Positions 4,410-12,988 of a stretch of 64,000 nucleotides of DNA are shown here, piece by piece; within the stretch, counting starts at the first letter, position 1; the number at the start of each line of letters is the position of its first letter. The translations under genes and the position numbers were made by a program. Location: the NCBI RefSeq assembly GCF_016102005.1, contig NZ_JACFPL010000001.1, positions 62,001 to 126,000 of the forward strand, given 5' to 3'. The notes under the pieces are model-generated. The model ran no database searches. It saw only the letters and a program-made list of their open reading frames with translations, and was not told the origin of the DNA. This DNA comes from Bifidobacterium choladohabitans. GTDB lineage: Bacteria > Actinomycetota > Actinomycetes > Actinomycetales > Bifidobacteriaceae.

Positions 4410-5131
4410 TGATATCGGTCTTCCAGGAGAGAAAGAACTGACAAGTTCATAGGGAATATAAGATTCTTCAAGAAAAAGCCATATTTTCCAGCTCAAGATT
4501 GAAGTTGCGGGGCATCAGCAGCGCTACTAGATGTTTGCTCTTGTCGACTCCGATGATTGATGCTATAATTTACGGTTTAGCCAGAAGCCAGGACAAAGTC
4601 AACTCCACCAACTGTGCATAGCGTTTGGATACCAGTTCTGCCTTCTTGACAATGGCCCTCCTTTTGCTGCATTTCGTCCGGCTGGAAGCGCTTAGCATCG
4701 AATCCCTATTTGCGATCAGTCGGGCAGAGGCTGTGCTAGCCTGAGTGGTAGCGACGTTCTCATACTGGCATAAGAGCTAATCTCGCGTCCTCTTTCCTAT
4801 AGAGTGCTTTGAAGCAACTCTTTAGACTTGATTCCTTCGGAGACAGTTGTACCACTGGCTGGCATGGCTCTTCTCAAACCGACGGCTCAGCGTATTGTAC
4901 AGGTACAGACATCATCCAGTAGTGCCACAACTATTCTGCCAAAATTCAGGGTAGATGTATATTTTACGCACCCACAACCTGCCTGGAAACTGTCTTGCAA
5001 ATATCAAAGACTCTTACAACTGTAGAAGCTCGGGGATTTTATACTAGGAAATTCGAGGAAATTAGAATCACCTGCGGTTGCGGTTGTGAGACAAGTGATT
5101 GTACAATTCTTTTCTGGTGGAGGGATCTATA
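4410..5131. other. 722-bp AT-richer stretch with no convincing gene
   Basis: No recognisable complete gene. On the minus strand an open stretch at about 4580-4780 has no start codon and ends in a Lys/Leu-rich tail (VKKAELVSKRYAQLVELTLS); it may be the decayed C-terminus of an accessory gene. A plus-strand 65-codon ORF (4828-5025) has no ribosome site and no recognisable product. The promoter of the following AT-rich gene should lie at the right end. Composition changes abruptly from the flanking AraC gene, suggesting the edge of acquired DNA. Confidence 0.5.
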
Positions 5132-6568
5132 ATGAACCAAGAACTAGTACAACCTAATGAAAATAATCCTAGAGTTATCACAACTAAAGAGCTGACGGTG
5201 CTGGATAGCAGCCTACAACGCCTATTACAGAGTTTACAGCTGCCATCAGATAAACTGTTCGCTCCGATACAAGAACGCTCAATTGTACTCTACAACATTC
5301 AAAGCGCACTATCATCGCTACAGTCGAATGCACTGGGCAATTCTTACTATGTGTCAAAAATGATTGCGGCATCAACAGTTGGACTTTTTGACGCAGCGCT
5401 AAATTATCTTTGGGACGAGCTAATAGCTTCACTTCGGGAAAGAATAAAAAGTTTCGGACTCAGCTATTTTTACGACGTTGTTTCTGGTTTATCGAACGTA
5501 ACTATAGGAGATCTTAAAGATGAAAGTGATTTAGAAAAAATAAATGACGCTACTCTCTTAATTGCATGCAAAGAAATCGGATTCATAACCAAAGTTGGAT
5601 ACAAAAAGATAGATACCATTCGTTATCTTCGTAATAACGTCAGTGCAGCACATCCAAATGAAGAAAAGATGTCAGGCCTTGAGCTAGCTACTTACCTACA
5701 GGAATGTATTCAAGAAGTAATTAGTCAACCAACAGACACAGTAATGGCTAGTACAGCGCGCTTATTAAGCAATATTAAAAAACGCAGCTTATCTCCAGAA
5801 GAAGTGAATGAGACTACAGCTTATTTCCAAAATTTTACGGCGGAGACAACGGACCGCGTCACGTCTCTGGCGAATGGACTTTTCGGTATGTATGTCGCAA
5901 AAAAAGAACGAACTACAGTTATAGCGGATAATGTGAAACAAATATGGCCAAAATTGTGGCCTCACATTCCCGAAGATTTACGACATAAGTTCGGCCTCAG
6001 ACAAGCTGTTGCTGCCGCCAATGCTGACAGTGATTCTGCTAATGCAGCTTATGAACTTCTAGAAATTGCAGACGGATTACCGTACTTGACAGATGATATT
6101 CTTTCAATCAAATTAAACGAAGCACTAGATCTCCTGCTATCAGCACATCAAGGCTGGAACAACTTCTTTACTGAGCCTGCACCGGCGAAACAACTCAAGA
6201 ACCTTGTTGGAAATGATGGACGTATCCCTGATGCTGTTTCAGGTAAATATCTATCAGTTCTTTTACAATGCTACTTAGGTAATCCTTATGGCGTAAGTGT
6301 TGCAGCAGAACCGTATTACTCTGATCTTCTAAAATTACTTTCCTCAACTGATGCAGGAAAAATACTACATCTAGTACTAGATCCACAATACAATTATATT
6401 CTTTCAAGCAAATCTGGCCAGACTCAGTTCGGAAAATTGCTGGATATCATAGAACCTAAATTAACTAAAATGACTGACGTCAATCTCTTAGAAGCAGTTC
6501 GCAATTTCAATGGAGAACCAAACAAATTATGGACTGACAGCAATATTAGGCGACTTTCAGCACTTTAA
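5132..6568 (+). CDS. HEPN-like protein, possible defence RNase
   Basis: 478 residues from the ATG at 5132, which has a good ribosome site (ggtggaggg); an upstream TTG in frame is less likely. Codon use is strikingly AT-rich compared with all chromosomal neighbours, a sign of horizontal transfer. Residues about 60-200 are helical and contain R167-N-N-V-S-A-A-H174-P, which fits the R-x4-6-H active-site motif of HEPN ribonucleases. The rest is helical, with no membrane segments or signal peptide. HEPN proteins serve widely in abortive infection and toxin systems, but no partner antitoxin gene is adjacent. A terminator follows at 6624. I do not recognise a named family, and the function is inferred only from the motif and context. 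Confidence 0.65.
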   Translation: MNQELVQPNENNPRVITTKELTVLDSSLQRLLQSLQLPSDKLFAPIQERSIVLYNIQSALSSLQSNALGNSYYVSKMIAASTVGLFDAALNYLWDELIASLRERIKSFGLSYFYDVVSGLSNVTIGDLKDESDLEKINDATLLIACKEIGFITKVGYKKIDTIRYLRNNVSAAHPNEEKMSGLELATYLQECIQEVISQPTDTVMASTARLLSNIKKRSLSPEEVNETTAYFQNFTAETTDRVTSLANGLFGMYVAKKERTTVIADNVKQIWPKLWPHIPEDLRHKFGLRQAVAAANADSDSANAAYELLEIADGLPYLTDDILSIKLNEALDLLLSAHQGWNNFFTEPAPAKQLKNLVGNDGRIPDAVSGKYLSVLLQCYLGNPYGVSVAAEPYYSDLLKLLSSTDAGKILHLVLDPQYNYILSSKSGQTQFGKLLDIIEPKLTKMTDVNLLEAVRNFNGEPNKLWTDSNIRRLSAL

Positions 6569-6623
6569 AAATTGCTTTCATTCCAACATACGTTGAGCAA
6601 TTTGAATTGATTACAATCTCACT

Positions 6624-6650
6624 AGGCCTCGCTTCGTCGGGGCTTTTTTT
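6624..6650 (+). terminator. Rho-independent terminator after the HEPN-like gene
   Basis: A stem of 7 pairs with one bulge (AGGCCTCG / CGGGGCT) and a six-base loop is followed by seven T residues. It lies 55 bp after the stop codon of the HEPN-like gene. Confidence 0.75.
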
Positions 6651-6715
6651 ATGAGAACTTTTGTCTCTTAAATGTCACCCAAATTCTTGTTTTGAGGGAA
6701 TTCCCTTAGCAATAG

Positions 6716-6750
6716 AAAAGCCACGTAGCCCTCACAGCTGCGGGGCTTTC
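6716..6750 (-). terminator. Terminator-like hairpin beside the remote tRNA fragment
   Basis: On the minus strand GAAAGCC...GGCTTTTC encloses an inner AGCCC/GGGCT stem. It follows the truncated tRNA-Arg 3' fragment at 6761-6792 just as a terminator would follow a real tRNA gene. Confidence 0.5.
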
Positions 6751-6760
6751 GTGCAGTGCA

Positions 6761-6792
6761 CCAGACAGGGTTCGAACCTGCAACCTGCTGAT
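6761..6792. repeat. Distal att-like copy of the tRNA-Arg 3' half
   Basis: These 32 bases match 12003-12034 in the same orientation with a single mismatch. The shared block covers the T-arm, variable loop and part of the anticodon stem of tRNA-Arg(ACG). The copy lacks the anticodon, D arm and outer acceptor bases, so it is not a functional tRNA. It marks the far end of an element inserted at the tRNA 3' end. Confidence 0.85.
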
Positions 6793-7096
6793 GTACTGAG
6801 AGCAAATACCCCATACTGTGCCGAACTATTTAAAGCTATATAGCAGAAGGGAAAATGATCCGATTAATACGGATAAAACTAGGCTGAGATTGGGAGCAAA
6901 ACGACGTTCATCGTATCTGAACCGTGTCTGGATGTTTCTTTCGTCGCTTCTACGGGGTATGACTGGCTTACGTCATCGTCCTAGACTGAATCTAGGGGTT
7001 TGTTGACCCCACCTCTGGGTTAGGGTAGGTGCGTGGCTTATGGCTGTGGGATGCGCTCTTCCACCATTCAGTTCTTTGTGGTGGTTTGGCTTTTGC
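6793..7096. other. Island DNA without a recognisable gene
   Basis: Just inside the distal repeat. No ORF with a plausible start and product is visible; probably decayed mobile-element sequence. Confidence 0.5.
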
Positions 7097-7597
7097 TTAG
7101 GCCCTTGTGCGTTTAATTACCGCGAAGAGGATGGTAATATTCGCACGCCTGGCTGGGCTGTCCCGCCAGGCGTGACCTGTGTAGGTCATGTACCGGCATT
7201 GCGAGTAGGCTTCTGCATCCATCAGGCCGCGCACCTTGACACCCTTGCGTTCGCCGCACCGGTTCCAGATGTGCAGCCCCTGGCCGGAAGGGTTGATCTT
7301 GGCCCAGACCCTCACCCTCCTCGGACTGCTCCGCTGCGGGCAAGTTGGTCCAGGTGGACGGGTCGGTGCTGGAGGCCAGGGAACCGTCGAAGCGGATCGG
7401 CCTCTTGCTGGTGCCCTCGCCCTGGCGGCCAGCCGCCTGCGCAGCCATCGGTCTGCCATCGCCATGTCCGAGGGCACCGGCATCGTCCTGCCTGCCCGGT
7501 GGGCCCGCTGACGGCAGGCGTCCGAGCAGAACCTGCGCCGGCGACCCCTCCCGGAATGCTCGGGCAGTACTTTACAGCAGTACTCGCATCGAGTCAT
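7097..7597 (-). pseudogene. Frameshifted phage/plasmid zinc-finger and primase-polymerase-type remnant
   Basis: The reading begins with a zinc-finger module (CEYCCKVLPEHSG...FCSDACRQRAHR). It then needs a different frame for KRPIRFDGSLASSTDPSTWT (within 7113-7448), and returns to the first frame for SGQGLHIW and the YMTYTGHAW segment. The order zinc finger, 'KxPI..G.ASSTDP.TW', 'SG.GLH.W' is that of actinobacterial phage/plasmid proteins with a bifunctional primase/polymerase N-terminal region. At least two frameshifts and an internal deletion make it non-functional. Inferred former role: element replication. Confidence 0.65.
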
Positions 7598-8071
7598 GCT
7601 TTAGGCATATCGTGACATAACTCTGAAAACAAGAAAACCAAGCACTATCAGGCATTGAATTCATTACGTGACAACAGTAAAAACACAGGTCCTGTCACGT
7701 AATGCAGACCCAGACGCATTCTCTGGACACCCCTACAAGCAACGGAAACAGACCGCAGAGCGGCGAACGCCATGAGACTCAGAAAAGTCCGGAATCCTGG
7801 CGAAAAATGAAGGGGAGGGCGCACGCATAATCGGAGGTGCTAGCCGGCTGTTATCCCGCGGCCCTCCGGGATGTACCCCCCCCCGGGTTGGATCGATCCC
7901 GGATTGTTTTCGACGGGATGAAGCCTGGTTTTACGGTACCATGAATTGCGCGCTGCGGTTTCTCTTGCGGTTTTGGCTTTATGACAAGCGCTTGAAAGCC
8001 ATTACAGGTTGCCCAGGCTGTTATCGTCGCCGGGAATGAAGGAGAGAAGAGCTGTGGGCAAATACGAGAAA
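7598..8071. other. Island intergenic region without a gene
   Basis: No convincing coding sequence. The minus-strand ORF at 7851-8126 runs through the terminator hairpin and is judged spurious. The stretch contains the inverted repeat at 7663-7703 and a run of nine C residues at 7876-7884. Confidence 0.5.
7663..7703. repeat. Perfect 11-bp inverted repeat, 19-bp spacer
   Basis: ATTACGTGACA at 7663-7673 pairs perfectly with TGTCACGTAAT at 7693-7703. No T tract follows on either strand, so an operator or a replication-related site of the mobile element is as likely as a terminator. Confidence 0.6.
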
Positions 8072-8098
8072 GGGCCGATGGTTTAACACCATCGGCCC
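8072..8098 (-). terminator. Strong hairpin terminator of the DUF4145 gene
   Basis: A perfect 11-bp stem (GGGCCGATGGT / ACCATCGGCCC) with a five-base loop lies 32 bp beyond the DUF4145 stop codon. On the minus strand it is followed by a T-rich stretch (TTTCTCGTATTT). Confidence 0.8.
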
Positions 8099-8130
8099 AT
8101 GTATCGTGAAAGAATCGCAAAAGCACCCTA

Positions 8131-8871
8131 TCAGTTCGTTGCTGCCGTCGAGCTTGGGGCTATTGACCGGCAGTCATTTTTGTTCTCCTTACGCTTTTTT
8201 CTAAGGGCTTTGCGTTTTTGTATGGCTATTGGCTGCTGGTACACATAATCCAGCACGGTATCAAGAAAGCCGAGGATGTCTGAAGCGTCCTCCTTCGACA
8301 CCGGAATATCCGGATCGCCATGGGCCATGTCGTTCCCCAATAGCCGAATTTCATTTGCTTCCTGAGCCAGTTGGTCTGTAATGATGTTCTGCTCTGCAAG
8401 TTCTTCGATTTTCTCATTTAAAGACCCGGAGGTGATGCCCTTGTTTTTGGCGGTTGCTTCCAGCGCCGTTCTGGCCATGAGCACTGCTGAACGATAGGCC
8501 TTGATTGAGCAACACGAATATGCCTCGGAAGCCACAGCAGCTATATCTTCAGGGACATCTTCATATTCCTTCCAGACCGGCTCCCTAGGGATCCAAGTGA
8601 TTATCTGCTCGTCTTCATCATCAGGCTCTTCTTCGTCCTCGAAATCGGCTTCGACTTGGAAAACGCTTTGAGCTTGGCCTGAGTTGATTCTTCTGCCCAA
8701 TAAACTGCTGTCTATCATCCCCAATGTGGCGTACCCGCATGCGTCACACGTGAAAGGAGCGAACCATACAAACGAATCGGCTGCTTTCCCCTTGAGTATA
8801 TCCGAAAAAACTGGCCCTATTTGAGTCATATGCGAAAAACGCTCGCAGTGCCAACAAATTCTTGATGCCAT
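8131..8871 (-). CDS. DUF4145 (HEPN-fold) protein with N-terminal zinc ribbon
   Basis: 246 residues. Two CxxC pairs (C6/C9 and C42/C45) suggest an N-terminal zinc ribbon. After an acidic linker (about 75-90), residues about 105-215 match DUF4145: the Y.DVPEDIA.....A lead-in, the RSAVLMARTALEA helix, and R176-L-L-G-N180-D-M-A-H184. DUF4145 is a HEPN-like helical domain often found in mobile-element and restriction/defence loci. The C-terminus is Lys/Arg-rich. This gene is open and has its own terminator, while neighbouring phage genes are broken, which hints that it is retained cargo. No catalytic role is proven. Confidence 0.78.
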   Translation of the reverse strand: MASRICWHCERFSHMTQIGPVFSDILKGKAADSFVWFAPFTCDACGYATLGMIDSSLLGRRINSGQAQSVFQVEADFEDEEEPDDEDEQIITWIPREPVWKEYEDVPEDIAAVASEAYSCCSIKAYRSAVLMARTALEATAKNKGITSGSLNEKIEELAEQNIITDQLAQEANEIRLLGNDMAHGDPDIPVSKEDASDILGFLDTVLDYVYQQPIAIQKRKALRKKRKENKNDCRSIAPSSTAATN

Positions 8872-8874
8872 ACT

Positions 8875-9672
8875 TCAATGATACCGGTTATGTGAAAGGG
8901 TCGGGCATCTCTGCTTGGCCCTTACTGTAAACAACTGTGTTCTGGTGGCGACGGCGGCTTGGCTGGCGGCGCTGAGGACCTGGCTGCTGTCGTTGAGCAG
9001 GATGGCGCCTGCGGGGGTCTGCATGTTCAGGATGGTGGGGATCCCGTAGATGGCCGGCGTGGGGCTGTTGGCCATGTCGGTGGCGATGAGGGGCCGGTCG
9101 TTCCTGTCGGTGAGCTTGAGCAGGCTGGCCCAGGTACTGTAGCCCATGATGATGCCGGTGGGGCTGCCTCCGTTGTCGCCGACCTTGCCGATGGCGTCCA
9201 GGAGGGGGTTGAGCCCTGTGGCGGCGTTGATGTCTCCCGCGTCGGATCATGTCGGGGGTCAGGGCAGGCCTTTGATGCCGGCTTCGTCGCCCTGCAGGAG
9301 GAGCCAGTCGGCCTTGTCGGTGATGGCCTTGACAATGCCGGCCTGGATGAGGCTGGTGGTCTGCGTGTAGTCGGCGGCTTCGTTGCTGATGGGGGTGAGG
9401 ATGGCAATCTTGTGGGTGTGCACGTACATTTCGCTCAGGTCGGGGTCGGTTTCCGTGATCCTGGTGCCTTCGGCGACGATGGCCGCGTCCAGCCCGTCCT
9501 TGATGTAGGGGATGCGGGCCACTGGCCCGTCGCCGCTGATGGTGCCGCCGACGCTGGTCTGGCTGAAGATGAGCGCGTCGGGCGCGATGGTCTGGGCCGG
9601 GTAGAAGGTGGAGCCGGGCCACAGGCCTTCCTTGCCGGTGCCGGTGGTGATGATGTTGGCGGTGTCCGTCAT
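8875..9672 (-). pseudogene. HK97-type phage major capsid protein remnant
   Basis: From the ATG (MTDTANIITTG) the reading has typical capsid features: a Thr/Gly-rich start, then EGTRITETDPDLSEMYVH, an 'ILTPISNEA' segment, GDEAGIKGLP and later GDINAATGLNPLLDAIG and TGIIMGYSTWASLL. Two in-frame TGA codons near 9250-9261 interrupt it. Reading the short segment between them in another frame restores ALTPDMIRRG, so two compensating indels have occurred. The C-terminus is cut off near 8935 and runs into unrelated sequence. No portal, terminase or tail gene is nearby. Confidence 0.75.
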
Positions 9673-9797
9673 GGTGGTGTTCCTGTTCCGCATGGCGCGT
9701 CGGGAACCTGTCCGGGTATGCGGCGGCCATGCTCATGCTGGTTGATGAGTCGATGTTCATGTTCCCGCGCCGGTCTCCCTGGACCCTGGCGCGGCTG

Positions 9798-9857
9798 GCA
9801 TGGCCTGCACGCCGCTGAAGTTATATAAATGGTGAGGCGTCCGCATGGCCTGCACGC
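9798..9857. repeat. 15-bp direct repeat upstream of the capsid remnant
   Basis: GCATGGCCTGCACGC occurs at 9798-9812 and again at 9843-9857, 45 bp apart, in the gap between the capsid remnant and the next phage-like gene. Role unknown. Confidence 0.55.
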
Positions 9858-9890
9858 GGACACCCTCTTATTATACTCCTCGCGGGCGGC

Positions 9891-10268
9891 TCATGCGGGG
9901 CCCGTCCCGGCCTGTTTCCGCCAGCCGCTGATCGTGGCGTAGGGCAGGCCGAGCCGGTCGCAGGCCTTGAGCAGGAGGGTGCCCGGGTCGTTGCCGCGCT
10001 CCCTGGCCTGGCTTTCCTGCAGGCCCAGGAGGCCTTCGGCCACGTTGCGCAGCACGGCGGCCACCATCAGCCGCGTGCGTTCCGGGGTGTCCGGGTTCGC
10101 GCAGGGCAGGGCCACCCGCACCTCGCCCACGCCCAGCGCGTACGCCCTGCCCGCCAGCAGCACCCAGTCCATCATCACCCGCAGGCCCACGGTCTTCGCG
10201 GCCTGCTCGTCCAGCCGTTCGGCCTCCTCCAGGCGGCGGGCGAATTCGGCGTCCTGTTCCTCACTCAT
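9891..10268 (-). CDS. Small phage-like hypothetical protein
   Basis: 125 residues, largely helical, with an acidic N-terminus and a C-terminal segment (LLLKACDRLGLPYATISGWRKQ) that looks like a terminase-small-subunit or transposase-type helix-turn-helix. Its ATG overlaps the stop of the upstream gene by 8 bp, so the two are translationally coupled. No family is recognised. It could help pack or regulate the former prophage. Confidence 0.55.
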   Translation of the reverse strand: MSEEQDAEFARRLEEAERLDEQAAKTVGLRVMMDWVLLAGRAYALGVGEVRVALPCANPDTPERTRLMVAAVLRNVAEGLLGLQESQARERGNDPGTLLLKACDRLGLPYATISGWRKQAGTGPA

Positions 10269-10719
10269 CGGCGGTCTCCTTGCTTCTGATGGTTTCGATG
10301 ATGGCGATGTAGCGTTGCCCGCGGCGGCACAGGTCGCTGATGTCGGCGAGCAGGGCGCTCCATCCGTGGCCCTGCACCTGCAGGAGCCTGTCCAGGTGGG
10401 TCATGCTGATGATGCCGGTGCGGGCTTCCGTGTTCAGCGTGCGCTGGCTGATGCCGGCCTTCTCGGCCATTTCGGGCACAGTCATCCTCTGGAGTTCGAT
10501 CATGTCCTGGATGACGATGGCGAACGCGGTGAAGGTGCTGGGAGTTGCCGGGTCGAGCATCTGCCGGTCCATGCGCTCCTTCAGCATGCGGCATCGGGGG
10601 CAAATGCCGGCCGGCATGGCGTGGGCGCGTTCCACAAGCATGTGGTCATAGGCCATGGGCCGCCCGCGGCACAGGCTAGTCTTGCATTCCTTGACGCGCG
10701 GTGTTACATACTCAGCCAA
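10261..10719 (-). CDS. Putative phage-type regulator with helix-turn-helix
   Basis: Up to 152 residues; the first codon would be TTG, and internal ATGs (for example at 10656) are plausible alternative starts. A CPRC motif around residue 40 suggests metal binding. Residues about 78-110 (MTVPEMAEKAGISQRTLNTE) fit an XRE-like helix-turn-helix. It overlaps the following small gene. Probably a regulatory gene of the decayed prophage or integrative element; no specific target is visible. Confidence 0.55.
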   Translation of the reverse strand: MAEYVTPRVKECKTSLCRGRPMAYDHMLVERAHAMPAGICPRCRMLKERMDRQMLDPATPSTFTAFAIVIQDMIELQRMTVPEMAEKAGISQRTLNTEARTGIISMTHLDRLLQVQGHGWSALLADISDLCRRGQRYIAIIETIRSKETADE

Positions 10720-10914
10720 GAACCCGGCAAGCGCAAACGTGTCGGAACGGTGGCGAACAAGACTCTATGGCAGGGGCCTCAGGTAGAAGGTCAATTGGTA
10801 CTACCCCAACTCAAGCAGAACCAATACCAGACACATCAAGGCATTCCTCAAGCTGAATATGACGGAATAATACAGAGATGCAGTCGGGTGGCGGGGAAGG
10901 GAAATCTTAGAGGC
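10720..10914. other. Island DNA upstream of the integrase remnant
   Basis: No clean gene. This stretch may include the badly degraded N-terminus of the integrase, but no motif is clear enough to claim it. Confidence 0.4.
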
Positions 10915-11900
10915 AGCAAGTACGTACCGGACGCACTCCGACAACAGACTTCCAGAGAGTTAGCTGAGGACTACCAGAGTTTGAAGCATGGGCTGAAGGC
11001 GTCAAGCATCAATTGATACCGTTGCGAACTGAAGACACAAGTGCTTCCACGATGGGCGACGTGCAACTTAACGCCATAACCGAGACGGACATAAACACCT
11101 GGAGCGAGGATTCCAACAAAGGCGAATCATCTTGTATGTTCGGGGCAACCCGCAAATCCAAGCCACTGTCCCCCAGCATTCACAACATAGTGTAAGTTAC
11201 TTTCGGCAGCGTGTTCCAATATGAGAGGTAACTCCTAAACGTCAGTGGCTTACTATCGACCCACTGTCGGGAACCAAACTCTCACGCAAGCAGATCACAG
11301 ATGAAGCGCTATATCTGACCTATGTGGAAACAGAAGACCGGCAGAAAAAACAGATAAGCTCAATCCATCTATGTCGGACACCTTAGTTCGATTCCTCGCA
11401 TATGTGGATTTGCGGATCGGCAAGACAGCAGCACTGAAAGTCTCAAATATGGACTTCGAGAAGCTGCGGGTCAACATCCTACGAATCTGGACCGAAGATG
11501 ATAAAAGCAAACCAGCCCTAGGATCTGCGAAAACGTGGGAACACAAGCGGGTTGCGATTCCCCTTTTCCTCGTCGTCCCCCCCCTCAAAAGGCTCTGTTC
11601 AGGGCAACCACCCAAAGCCTTCGTTTTCCGCCCCAAACGCGGAGAACACATCAACATAAAGAACTGGTATAACCGCATCTGGGTGAAAGCGGTAGCCGGG
11701 AGCGGACTCACGATACATAGTCTCCACCACACTTTCGCATCTCTATCCATCGCTACGGGGGGGGGGGCTGACGTGAAGATGGTCCAGAACGCCTTGGGTC
11801 ATGCAGATGCCAGCATACCCTGAATGTGTATGCGTCGCTCTGGCCTAACCGTTTAGATGAAGTGGCCGAGATCATAGAAAGCAGCGAGACAGGAAACTGA
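10915..11900 (+). pseudogene. int: Tyrosine integrase, multiply frameshifted
   Basis: Pieces in different frames rebuild a phage-type integrase: SRELAEDYQSLK and YRCELKTQVLP near 10940-11050, then MGDVQLNAITETDINTW (core-binding domain), then the catalytic domain in 11371-11823. Box I has DLRIGKTAALKVS. Box II reads HSLHH instead of H-x-L-R-H, losing an essential Arg. A one-base deletion at about 11818 separates LGHADASI from the Tyr-bearing NVYASLWPNRLDEVAEI, which ends at 11900. It points towards the adjacent tRNA-Arg, its former target. The enzyme must be dead. Confidence 0.85.
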
Positions 11901-11960
11901 ACTAAAGCATTTTCGCCCGTCGTGTCTAATCGTGTCTGAAAGAAAATGATCCTCATATTA

Positions 11961-11991
11961 AATAACCCCTGGAAACTAATGTTTCCAAGGG
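11961..11991 (-). terminator. Terminator of tRNA-Arg
   Basis: On the minus strand CCCTTGGAAAC and GTTTCCAGGGG form a stem with 10 of 11 pairs and a four-base loop. TTATTTAA follows. It lies 8 bp beyond the tRNA 3' end. Confidence 0.8.
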
Positions 11992-11998
11992 TTTCTCG

Positions 11999-12072
11999 TG
12001 CGCCAGACAGGATTCGAACCTGCAACCTGCTGATCCGTAGTCAGCTGCTCTAATCCGTTGGGCTACTGGCGC
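11999..12072 (-). tRNA. tRNA-Arg (anticodon ACG)
   Basis: A 74-nt cloverleaf on the minus strand: acceptor GCGCCAG/CTGGCGC with discriminator A, anticodon stem GCTGA/TCAGC around loop CTACGGA (anticodon ACG), and T arm GCAGG/CCTGT with loop TTCGAAT. CCA is not encoded. Its 3' half is the attachment site of the adjacent decayed element and remains intact. Confidence 0.95.
12003..12034. repeat. tRNA-proximal att-like repeat
   Basis: Chromosomal partner of the copy at 6761-6792 (31 of 32 bases identical, same orientation), lying inside tRNA-Arg. Together the pair delimits about 5.2 kb of inserted DNA. Confidence 0.85.
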
Positions 12073-12178
12073 ATGTCATCTCGACGAGGAACTCGTTTTT
12101 GACAACTCATTTATATTACCGCAACTGTAGATTCTGTCCAGTCTGGTGTGTCGTGCGGGAAGCGGAAAGCCACAGGCT

Positions 12179-12988
12179 TTAAGCCGACTGTGACCAAGAC
12201 AGACAGAGTAGATATTCCATGTTGCCATGGGCACCGGTTATGGGCGACGGCATGGTAGCGTGGACAACAAATCCATGCTCACGCGCACAGGCCAAGACCC
12301 GCTTCAAAGCCTCTTGCCTGCTGTCCTCGTCCGTCACAATGCCATGATGACCCAGCAGGCTACGTCCGACCTCAAACTGGGGCTTGACCAGCAGCATGCA
12401 GTTGGCAACAGGCGCCAGCAAGGCAGGCAGTACTGGAATGACATAGGTCAGCGAGATAAAAGACACATCCGAGACCACATATTCCGGGCGATAAGGCAGG
12501 TCCCCCGGCTGAACTTCGCGTATATTGACACCGCTCATGTCAATCACCCTAGGATCAGCGGCAATCCGTTCAAGCAACTGTCCGTGGCCCACATCAAGGG
12601 CGATAACTCGCCGTGCACCATGCCTGAGCAGGACGTCAGTGAAACCGCCCGTGGAGGCCCCGATATCGAGGCAGAGCCTGTCCCGCGGACCGGCCATCCC
12701 CTGCGTCGCAAAAGTCGTCAGGGCGCCCTCCAGCTTCAGCGCTCCCCGGGAGGCATAGTCATCGCCCGGATCCAGAAGAATCACATCGCCTGGCTGGACG
12801 CTCTGAGCAGGCTTTGATGCCAGATGATGGTTGACCGTAACCCGGCCCTGCCGAATCAACACCTGGGCTCTGGCACGTGAATCCGTCAGCCCTTGTGCAG
12901 ACAGGATACGGTCAAGCCGGTCGCAGGTGTGAGCCACAGTCCTTCGACAACCGTCCCCAGCGCTGACGACCGTGTCCTCAACGTTCAC
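12179..12988 (-). CDS. tlyA: TlyA-family rRNA 2'-O-methyltransferase
   Basis: 269 residues. An S4 RNA-binding domain (about 22-82) precedes an FtsJ/RrmJ-type methyltransferase with SAM motif LDIGASTGGFTDVLL (107-121) and the catalytic Lys in SRGALKLEGAL (K85). TlyA enzymes methylate cytidines in 16S and 23S rRNA in the cytosol; older 'haemolysin A' names are misleading. The GTG start overlaps the upstream stop (GTGA) and has a good ribosome site (gggagggca). It is last in a probable operon with the small acidic protein, the HAD phosphatase and the TPR protein. Confidence 0.92.
   Translation of the reverse strand: MNVEDTVVSAGDGCRRTVAHTCDRLDRILSAQGLTDSRARAQVLIRQGRVTVNHHLASKPAQSVQPGDVILLDPGDDYASRGALKLEGALTTFATQGMAGPRDRLCLDIGASTGGFTDVLLRHGARRVIALDVGHGQLLERIAADPRVIDMSGVNIREVQPGDLPYRPEYVVSDVSFISLTYVIPVLPALLAPVANCMLLVKPQFEVGRSLLGHHGIVTDEDSRQEALKRVLACAREHGFVVHATMPSPITGAHGNMEYLLCLSWSQSA

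Follow-up and report, generated by a model that had tools for sequence, protein, structure and literature searches.

Capsid-forming phage-inducible chromosomal islands (cfPICIs) encode, besides their capsid, terminase, portal, protease and connectors. Within the Actinomycetota, the candidate phage-inducible chromosomal islands (PICIs) of Mycobacterium include the phiRv1 and phiRv2 elements, according to the available part of the report on them (PMC10654092). For bifidobacteria, the accessible portions of two surveys give prophage-like regions with a mode of 9.9 kb and a median of 14.3 kb in human isolates (PMC8705816), and intact prophages in 3 of 12 Bifidobacterium asteroides isolates from the bee gut (PMC10259446). 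Here we analysed a 64,000-nucleotide stretch of Bifidobacterium choladohabitans (assembly GCF_016102005.1, contig NZ_JACFPL010000001.1, positions 62,001 to 126,000 of the forward strand), referred to below as the window, in which a short mobile element of about 5.2 kb abuts a tRNA-Arg(ACG) gene. The data suggest, with a probability that we put at roughly 0.85, that this element is a tRNA-inserted and now decayed member of a family of compact, capsid-encoding, satellite-like elements. The closest known kind is best read as the Mycobacterium candidate PICIs.

Results

The integration target is a whole tRNA-Arg(ACG) gene at 11998..12072 on the minus strand (ARAGORN; Rfam RF00005, 62.7 bits), the sole tRNA gene in the window. 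Its anticodon begins at tRNA position 35, and the attachment (att) repeat spans from just behind the anticodon to the last base of the tRNA (tRNA positions 39-75). This gives a tRNA-side copy of 37 nt at 11998..12034 and a distal copy with 2 mismatches at 6756..6792, both on the minus strand. A preliminary description of this DNA had reported a 32-bp block with one mismatch, present twice in the same orientation, and an integrase remnant adjoining the 3' end of the tRNA. The repeat, its orientation and the position of the integrase were all confirmed, but the extent of the repeat had been given too short, the 32 bp being the inner part of the 37-nt copies. The inner 31 nt, with up to 3 mismatches allowed, occur twice in the 64 kb and were never found in 100 shuffles. 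Over its 37 nt, the tRNA-side copy is unchanged in seven relatives whose site is empty and in G011, whose site is occupied. The distal copies of G011 and G009 have no mismatches to the tRNA copy, so the distal copy in the window has probably drifted.

Relatives of the window strain hold the site in its empty form. A query made of the tRNA and its right flank (1308 bases) was searched in 27 genomes of the genus, including that of the window (G000). It matched in all 27, and 13 aligned over at least 1303 of the 1308 bases; this set minus the window genome forms the 12 close relatives in which the left side was compared. When window positions 6500-6755 were joined to 11998-12400 and aligned to these relatives, the joined flanks ran unbroken across the junction in 7 of the 12 (G019, G003, G018, G010, G004, G007 and G020), the left flank aligning over 125-133 bases in six of them and over 41 in G007. 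Among the remaining five, G011 is occupied and both G025 and G008 carry the integrase end of an element; in G009 the distal junction lies some 1.2 kb away from the end of one contig and a second contig starts with the tRNA-side junction, and in G022 the DNA left of the tRNA extends for only 270 bases and matches neither flank. The more distant G013 and G014 gave a shorter junction-crossing alignment that starts just 13 bases before the repeat. An empty site in related strains had been named beforehand as the proof of insertion, and its recovery supports insertion here. The opposite idea, that the 5.2 kb is shared core genome, is ruled out by these empty sites. Taken together with a sister element in G011 that has the same inner edges, they show site-specific insertion at tRNA-Arg. 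The locus has the direct repeat of the tRNA 3' end at both of its edges, the empty site in relatives and, as a broken remnant, the integrase that characterize tRNA-targeting integrative elements.

The DNA next to the two repeat copies shows which side was displaced. In a consensus scan, terminator-like hairpins adjoin both copies, at 11964..11993 on the tRNA side and at 6716..6750 on the distal side (both minus strand); since the scan gave 11 hairpins in the region and a mean of 5.7 in shuffles, a single match of this kind is weak. Folding against shuffles separates the two: the tRNA-side hairpin far exceeds its shuffles (z -4.57), the distal one does not exceed them (z -0.25), and the corresponding flank of the empty G019 site falls in between (z -1.93). 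The alignment that holds the tRNA-side hairpin runs on in G011, G025 and G008 but starts at the repeat in the seven empty sites (11 bases earlier in G019). The flank with the distal hairpin, on the other hand, directly adjoins the tRNA in the empty-site relatives. Because the tRNA-side hairpin is shared with occupied and not with empty sites, the element brought its own terminator and displaced the native 3' flank of the tRNA, of which the distal hairpin is a weathered part. The suggestion that the two hairpins mark two once-functional genes was not upheld, as one belongs to the native flank of a single tRNA and the other to element DNA; hairpin folding and flank alignments gave no sign of a second functional tRNA gene.

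The genes that identify the element are decayed. A tyrosine integrase remnant lies at 10712..11885 on the plus strand (PF00589, E 7.8e-10), and tblastn with the intact integrase of G023 placed it in three frames with 2, 6 and 0 stops. All four readable, nucleotide-similar integrase copies at tRNA-Arg(ACG) (window, G011, G025 and G008) are in several frames, and the integrase that G002 carries beside this tRNA, which is more distant, is likewise broken into two. An HK97-type major capsid protein remnant at 8878..9645 on the minus strand (PF05065, E 6.1e-7) has two in-frame TGA codons, and its counterpart in G011 is split over two frames. The window capsid piece had no phage match and no viral-contig relative, and matched one named genome locus. 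A third piece, at 7097..7597 on the minus strand, is a fragment in which a zinc-finger-like start (PF06467, E 0.0018, below the cut-off) is fused to the last third of a primase/polymerase domain (phrog_8643, E 1.8e-21, aligned only to profile positions 123-177 of 179). Broken integrase, capsid and replication genes had been proposed earlier; decay is evident in the first two, and the replication gene is better called a fragment. The element is presumably now fixed in the window strain, though a related integrase may excise it in trans.

The capsid family of the window element is open in two other genomes, G023 and G005, and in both elements the integrase is open as well. The G023 element is bounded by two 37-nt repeats (37/37 identical, start-to-start 9,082 nt) at tRNA-Arg(TCT); both the length of the repeat and its position on the tRNA agree with those seen in the window. 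Besides an integrase of 426 aa and a capsid protein of 279 aa, the latter matching solved HK97 capsid sequences (best E 3.8e-8), it encodes a helix-turn-helix (HTH) regulator, a second HTH protein that resembles excisionases, a DUF3631 protein and two small proteins of 109 and 166 aa, the larger of which has a scaffold match below threshold (PF06810, E 0.001). The G005 cousin has a 21-nt repeat at tRNA-Pro(CGG) and a similar gene order with an AAA_25 ATPase. The 109-aa protein upstream of the G023 capsid gene, whose counterpart in G005 has 115 aa, is 28% identical to the product of an open 125-aa HTH-like frame in the window (9891..10268, minus strand).

These cousins belong to a larger set of similar size. 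A two-row capsid profile was searched in 189 Bifidobacteriaceae genomes and matched in 36; near-full-length open capsid genes (at least 261 of 301 positions) were found at 24 places in 22 genomes, and 22 of these places were examined (G108 and G170 were left out). A direct repeat of a tRNA end, at least 15 nt long, bounds capsid and integrase in 20 of the 22 loci, and the elements so bounded measure 6,948-9,118 nt with a median of 8,342. Of the 28 tRNAs that these stretches contain, 8 yielded no repeat of at least 14 nt under the same procedure. An integrase match was present in 21 of the 22 stretches, the exception being L085. In 15 of the 20 bounded elements, the next gene upstream of the capsid gene on the same strand encodes 139-247 aa, and a sixteenth such gene (in L096) is integrase-like. 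The statement that most elements carry a scaffold gene was dropped, scaffold families being matched by only a few proteins. The earlier figure of about 5.2 kb holds as the size of the window copy, but intact cousins of 6.9-9.1 kb indicate that part of the window element is probably missing.

In a wider search of the order, 25 of 396 genomes, including 4 from the Bifidobacteriaceae, contained the capsid family (E 1e-20 or better). Nine loci from other families were inspected, some on stretches that end at contig ends; six have an integrase match and four a tRNA-end repeat of at least 17 nt. These four (L101, L104, L105 and L108) have repeats of 17-57 nt at tRNA-Ser, Ala, Ala and Tyr, respectively; they are roughly 7.5-9 kb long, and none has a PF04860 portal on its contig. 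Spread of the family beyond the Bifidobacteriaceae is only indicated by these loci.

Alternatively, the element could derive from an ordinary tailed prophage of full size that integrated at the tRNA and then lost most of its genes; it does contain genes for a capsid and an integrase and part of a primase gene, and the survey of human bifidobacteria, in its available part, treats regions below 13 kb as likely remnants (PMC8705816). The genes of the cousins speak against this. Genes were called with a purpose-written script, and proteins of at least 60 aa from 12 of the 20 bounded elements (132 proteins) were scanned. Pfam gave 17 families, namely integrase parts, capsid, HTH, ATPase/primase types, DUF3631, DUF3987, HNH and AbiEi_4, and no terminase, portal, tail or lysis family. 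Among the best 25 of 70, 32 and 47 PHROGs families were head scaffolding families, each matched by few proteins, and HNH endonucleases. In 25 genomes, the TerL model PF03354 matched in two (one over the cut-off) and the portal model PF04860 in six, but none of these matches lay beside a strong capsid of the family. Portals did lie beside two weak capsid matches with longer frames of 433-435 aa (G025 C1:566039 and G066 C1:442700), which look like ordinary prophage capsids and serve as a positive control. The nearest open capsid relatives are found in repeat-bounded elements of 6.9-9.1 kb, at 20 of 22 loci, in which no terminase, portal or tail gene was recognised, and full-size relatives with portal, terminase and tail genes were not found. 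Additionally, no phage record covers 80% of the G023 capsid, the best-covering records reaching 76% at 26-28% identity, and the window capsid piece is likewise without a phage match. We consider descent from a full-size prophage improbable. What was found is the combination expected of an actinobacterial candidate PICI: a single small element with genes for an integrase and a major capsid protein, both of them remnants in the window and both open in G023 and G005, and, judged from the cousins, no full set of virion genes.

It could also be argued that the element is a genomic island of non-phage origin that sits at a tRNA hotspot and picked up phage genes bit by bit, with the capsid fragment as a passenger. 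Three relatives (G025, G008 and G002) do hold quite different islands at the same tRNA, as judged from gene kinds by eye. However, the G023 element repeats the order seen in the window, with the integrase by the tRNA, the small upstream protein and the capsid gene on the other strand; integrase and capsid are shared with the element in G011; and one partial, decayed copy lies at another tRNA, near tRNA-Gly in G025. We regard piecemeal capture as highly improbable. The partial copy (L072, 8063-10666) lies about 1.8 kb from tRNA-Gly CCC (12498-12569). The end of its helicase is 74% identical to the G023 protein, and its capsid frame is open but internally shortened and 83-87% identical to the window piece.

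Several observations weigh against placing the window element in a family of satellites. Two of the 22 loci have no bounding repeat, L085 being at a contig end and L094 having no tRNA that could be found. The scan of the cousins covered script-called genes, proteins of at least 60 aa and 12 of 20 elements; 87% of PHROGs are without a function and the PHROGs results are the best 25 of 70, 32 and 47 families, so a packaging gene may go unrecognised and rarer genes may be hidden. PF03354 and PF04860 do not cover every terminase and portal. The window genome itself matched neither of these two models, so no resident helper was detected in it. Finally, the genes that lie between integrase and capsid in the cousins (replication ATPase, excisionase and scaffold) were not found in the window, so membership there rests on the integrase, the capsid, one small upstream protein and the geometry of the att repeats.

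The decayed sister element in G011 occupies the same tRNA site. Its two repeats, whose starts are 4,853 nt apart, match the tRNA copy exactly, and the sequence directly inside the distal one differs little from that of the window. In four segments, the two elements are 86%, 83%, 97% (the capsid segment) and 86% identical, compared with 95% in the right flank and 70% over 93 aligned bases of the native left flank. In a tree of the 2.7 kb right of the tRNA, the window genome stands next to the pair of G019, which is empty, and G011, which is occupied (pair support 98/97), and this requires either loss from G019 or two separate insertions. The case for two insertions of related elements draws on this grouping, on the uneven identity of the elements (83-97%), and on the integrase stretch of the window, which is equally near to G011 (86.7%) and G025 (85.7%) although the tRNA and right flank (the 1308-base query) are nearer to G011 (94%) than to G025 (88%). 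However, the window and G011 have the same inner edges and share two small gaps that are not present in G025 or G008, which fits one old insertion lost from G019, and the low identity could reflect fast drift of unselected DNA, the left flank being at 70%. The evidence is evenly divided between these two histories, and insertion on two occasions would be compatible with the satellite reading.

Two further frames of the window element are open. One, on the minus strand at 8131..8871, is a 246-aa DUF4145 gene (PF13643, E 4.6e-19) that is probably cargo, with a terminator-like hairpin at 8072-8098 in the consensus scan. In PADLOC its product weakly matches PD-T7-4 (E 1.3e-7), which only suggests a possible anti-phage role. 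Relatives of this gene were found in 11 of 189 genomes of the Bifidobacteriaceae, including the window's own, which has a second copy elsewhere that is 66% identical and contains one stop. The other open frame (152 aa, 10261..10719, minus strand) has a weak Cro/C1-type HTH match (PF13443, E 0.0062, below the cut-off). The only three G or C runs of at least 8 in the window (7876-7884, 11577-11584 and 11757-11767) all lie inside the element; across the whole genome such runs are sparse, with at least 72 and at least 77 overlapping matches on the two strands. Those in the element may reflect run expansion in unselected DNA or an assembly error.

Beyond the distal repeat lies an open gene of 489 aa (5099-6568) with about 38-43% G+C, below the 54-59% of the window's first 4 kb. 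It matches phrog_27609, a family of unknown function, strongly (E 5.2e-56), had no Pfam or PADLOC match at E 0.1 and aligned in none of the 18 relative stretches compared. The protein contains an R-x6-H motif (RNNVSAAH) reminiscent of HEPN ribonucleases, and the gene, a neighbour of the tRNA hotspot, is a candidate defence gene. The other islands at tRNA-Arg(ACG) differ in content, as judged by eye. Those of G025 (L045, 6739-16802) and G008 (L046) carry genes resembling sugar-acid metabolism (permease, oxidoreductase, isomerase-like, kinase and GntR-type regulator) and adjoin a broken integrase of the family. The 13.1-kb island of G002 (L049, 4005-17179) carries peptide-modification-like genes (radical SAM, E1/ThiF-like, peptidase-like, methyltransferase and ABC exporter).

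Discussion

The element in the window is an insertion with defined edges and decayed genes, and small, open, tRNA-repeat-bounded relatives of it exist. From the anatomy we infer the enzyme, namely the element's integrase, and the direction of the insertion; mobility of the relatives and their dependence on a helper phage are likewise inferred. In the model proposed here, an element with a tyrosine recombinase would have recombined its att site with the 3' half of tRNA-Arg(ACG). This would have left the tRNA whole, with the element's own terminator on the tRNA side, and displaced the second 37-nt copy and the native 3' flank by 5.2 kb. The family consists of compact integrative elements of the Bifidobacteriaceae with a median size of about 8.3 kb, encoding an integrase, HTH regulator-like and excisionase-like proteins, a replication ATPase or primase, one HK97-type capsid and, in some, a scaffold. 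Its members would most likely be phage satellites that make a shell themselves and rely on a helper phage for packaging, tail and lysis functions. In the window strain, frameshifts, stops and probably deletions have disabled the element, with the DUF4145 cargo and the two HTH-like frames staying open.

Taken alone, the window copy is a case of ordinary decay, and its interest lies in leading to a set of repeat-bounded elements that are uniform in size and have one open capsid gene. On balance, we lean towards the view that the Bifidobacteriaceae, and probably other Actinomycetales, carry discrete satellites of about 8.3 kb with their own capsid, replication genes and in some cases a scaffold, but with no terminase or portal, whose shell would be filled and completed by a helper phage. 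Surveys may count such elements as remnants, and several dead ones would lie at tRNA-Arg(ACG). In the open-licence literature, we found no title or abstract describing such elements in Bifidobacterium. If they are satellites, helper dependence and small capsids are directly testable in bifidobacteria, and counts of remnant prophages in the genus may need revision.

The most unusual trait of the family is a lone capsid gene without a recognised terminase. The terminase, portal and head genes that make up the cfPICI set were not found here with PF03354, PF04860 or in the Pfam list. What the family would share with cfPICIs, as they are described in the available part of the source, is that of a satellite making its own capsid (PMC11389934). 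Mulch and Flayer of Streptomyces are, as proposed for the family described here, actinobacterial satellites with encapsidation genes (PMC10690885). In the accessible portion of that report they have encapsidation machinery and are without key replication genes, whereas the bifidobacterial elements have replication genes and, as virion genes, only the capsid, with a scaffold in some.

The Mycobacterium candidate PICIs come closer. As far as the available part of their description goes, some lie at tRNA genes and have tyrosine integrases, and some have helicase and scaffold genes, as in the family here (PMC10654092). Some of them also carry a terminase, and none was recognised in the bifidobacterial family. 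Further differences are the host family, the narrow size range of 6.9-9.1 kb and the broken state of the window copy, and the two groups are likened by description. Within bifidobacteria, the nearest counterparts in size are the small regions that the survey of human isolates, in its available part, regards as likely decayed when below 13 kb (PMC8705816). Based on the repeat-bounded cousins, we argue that for one family about 8 kb is the native size.

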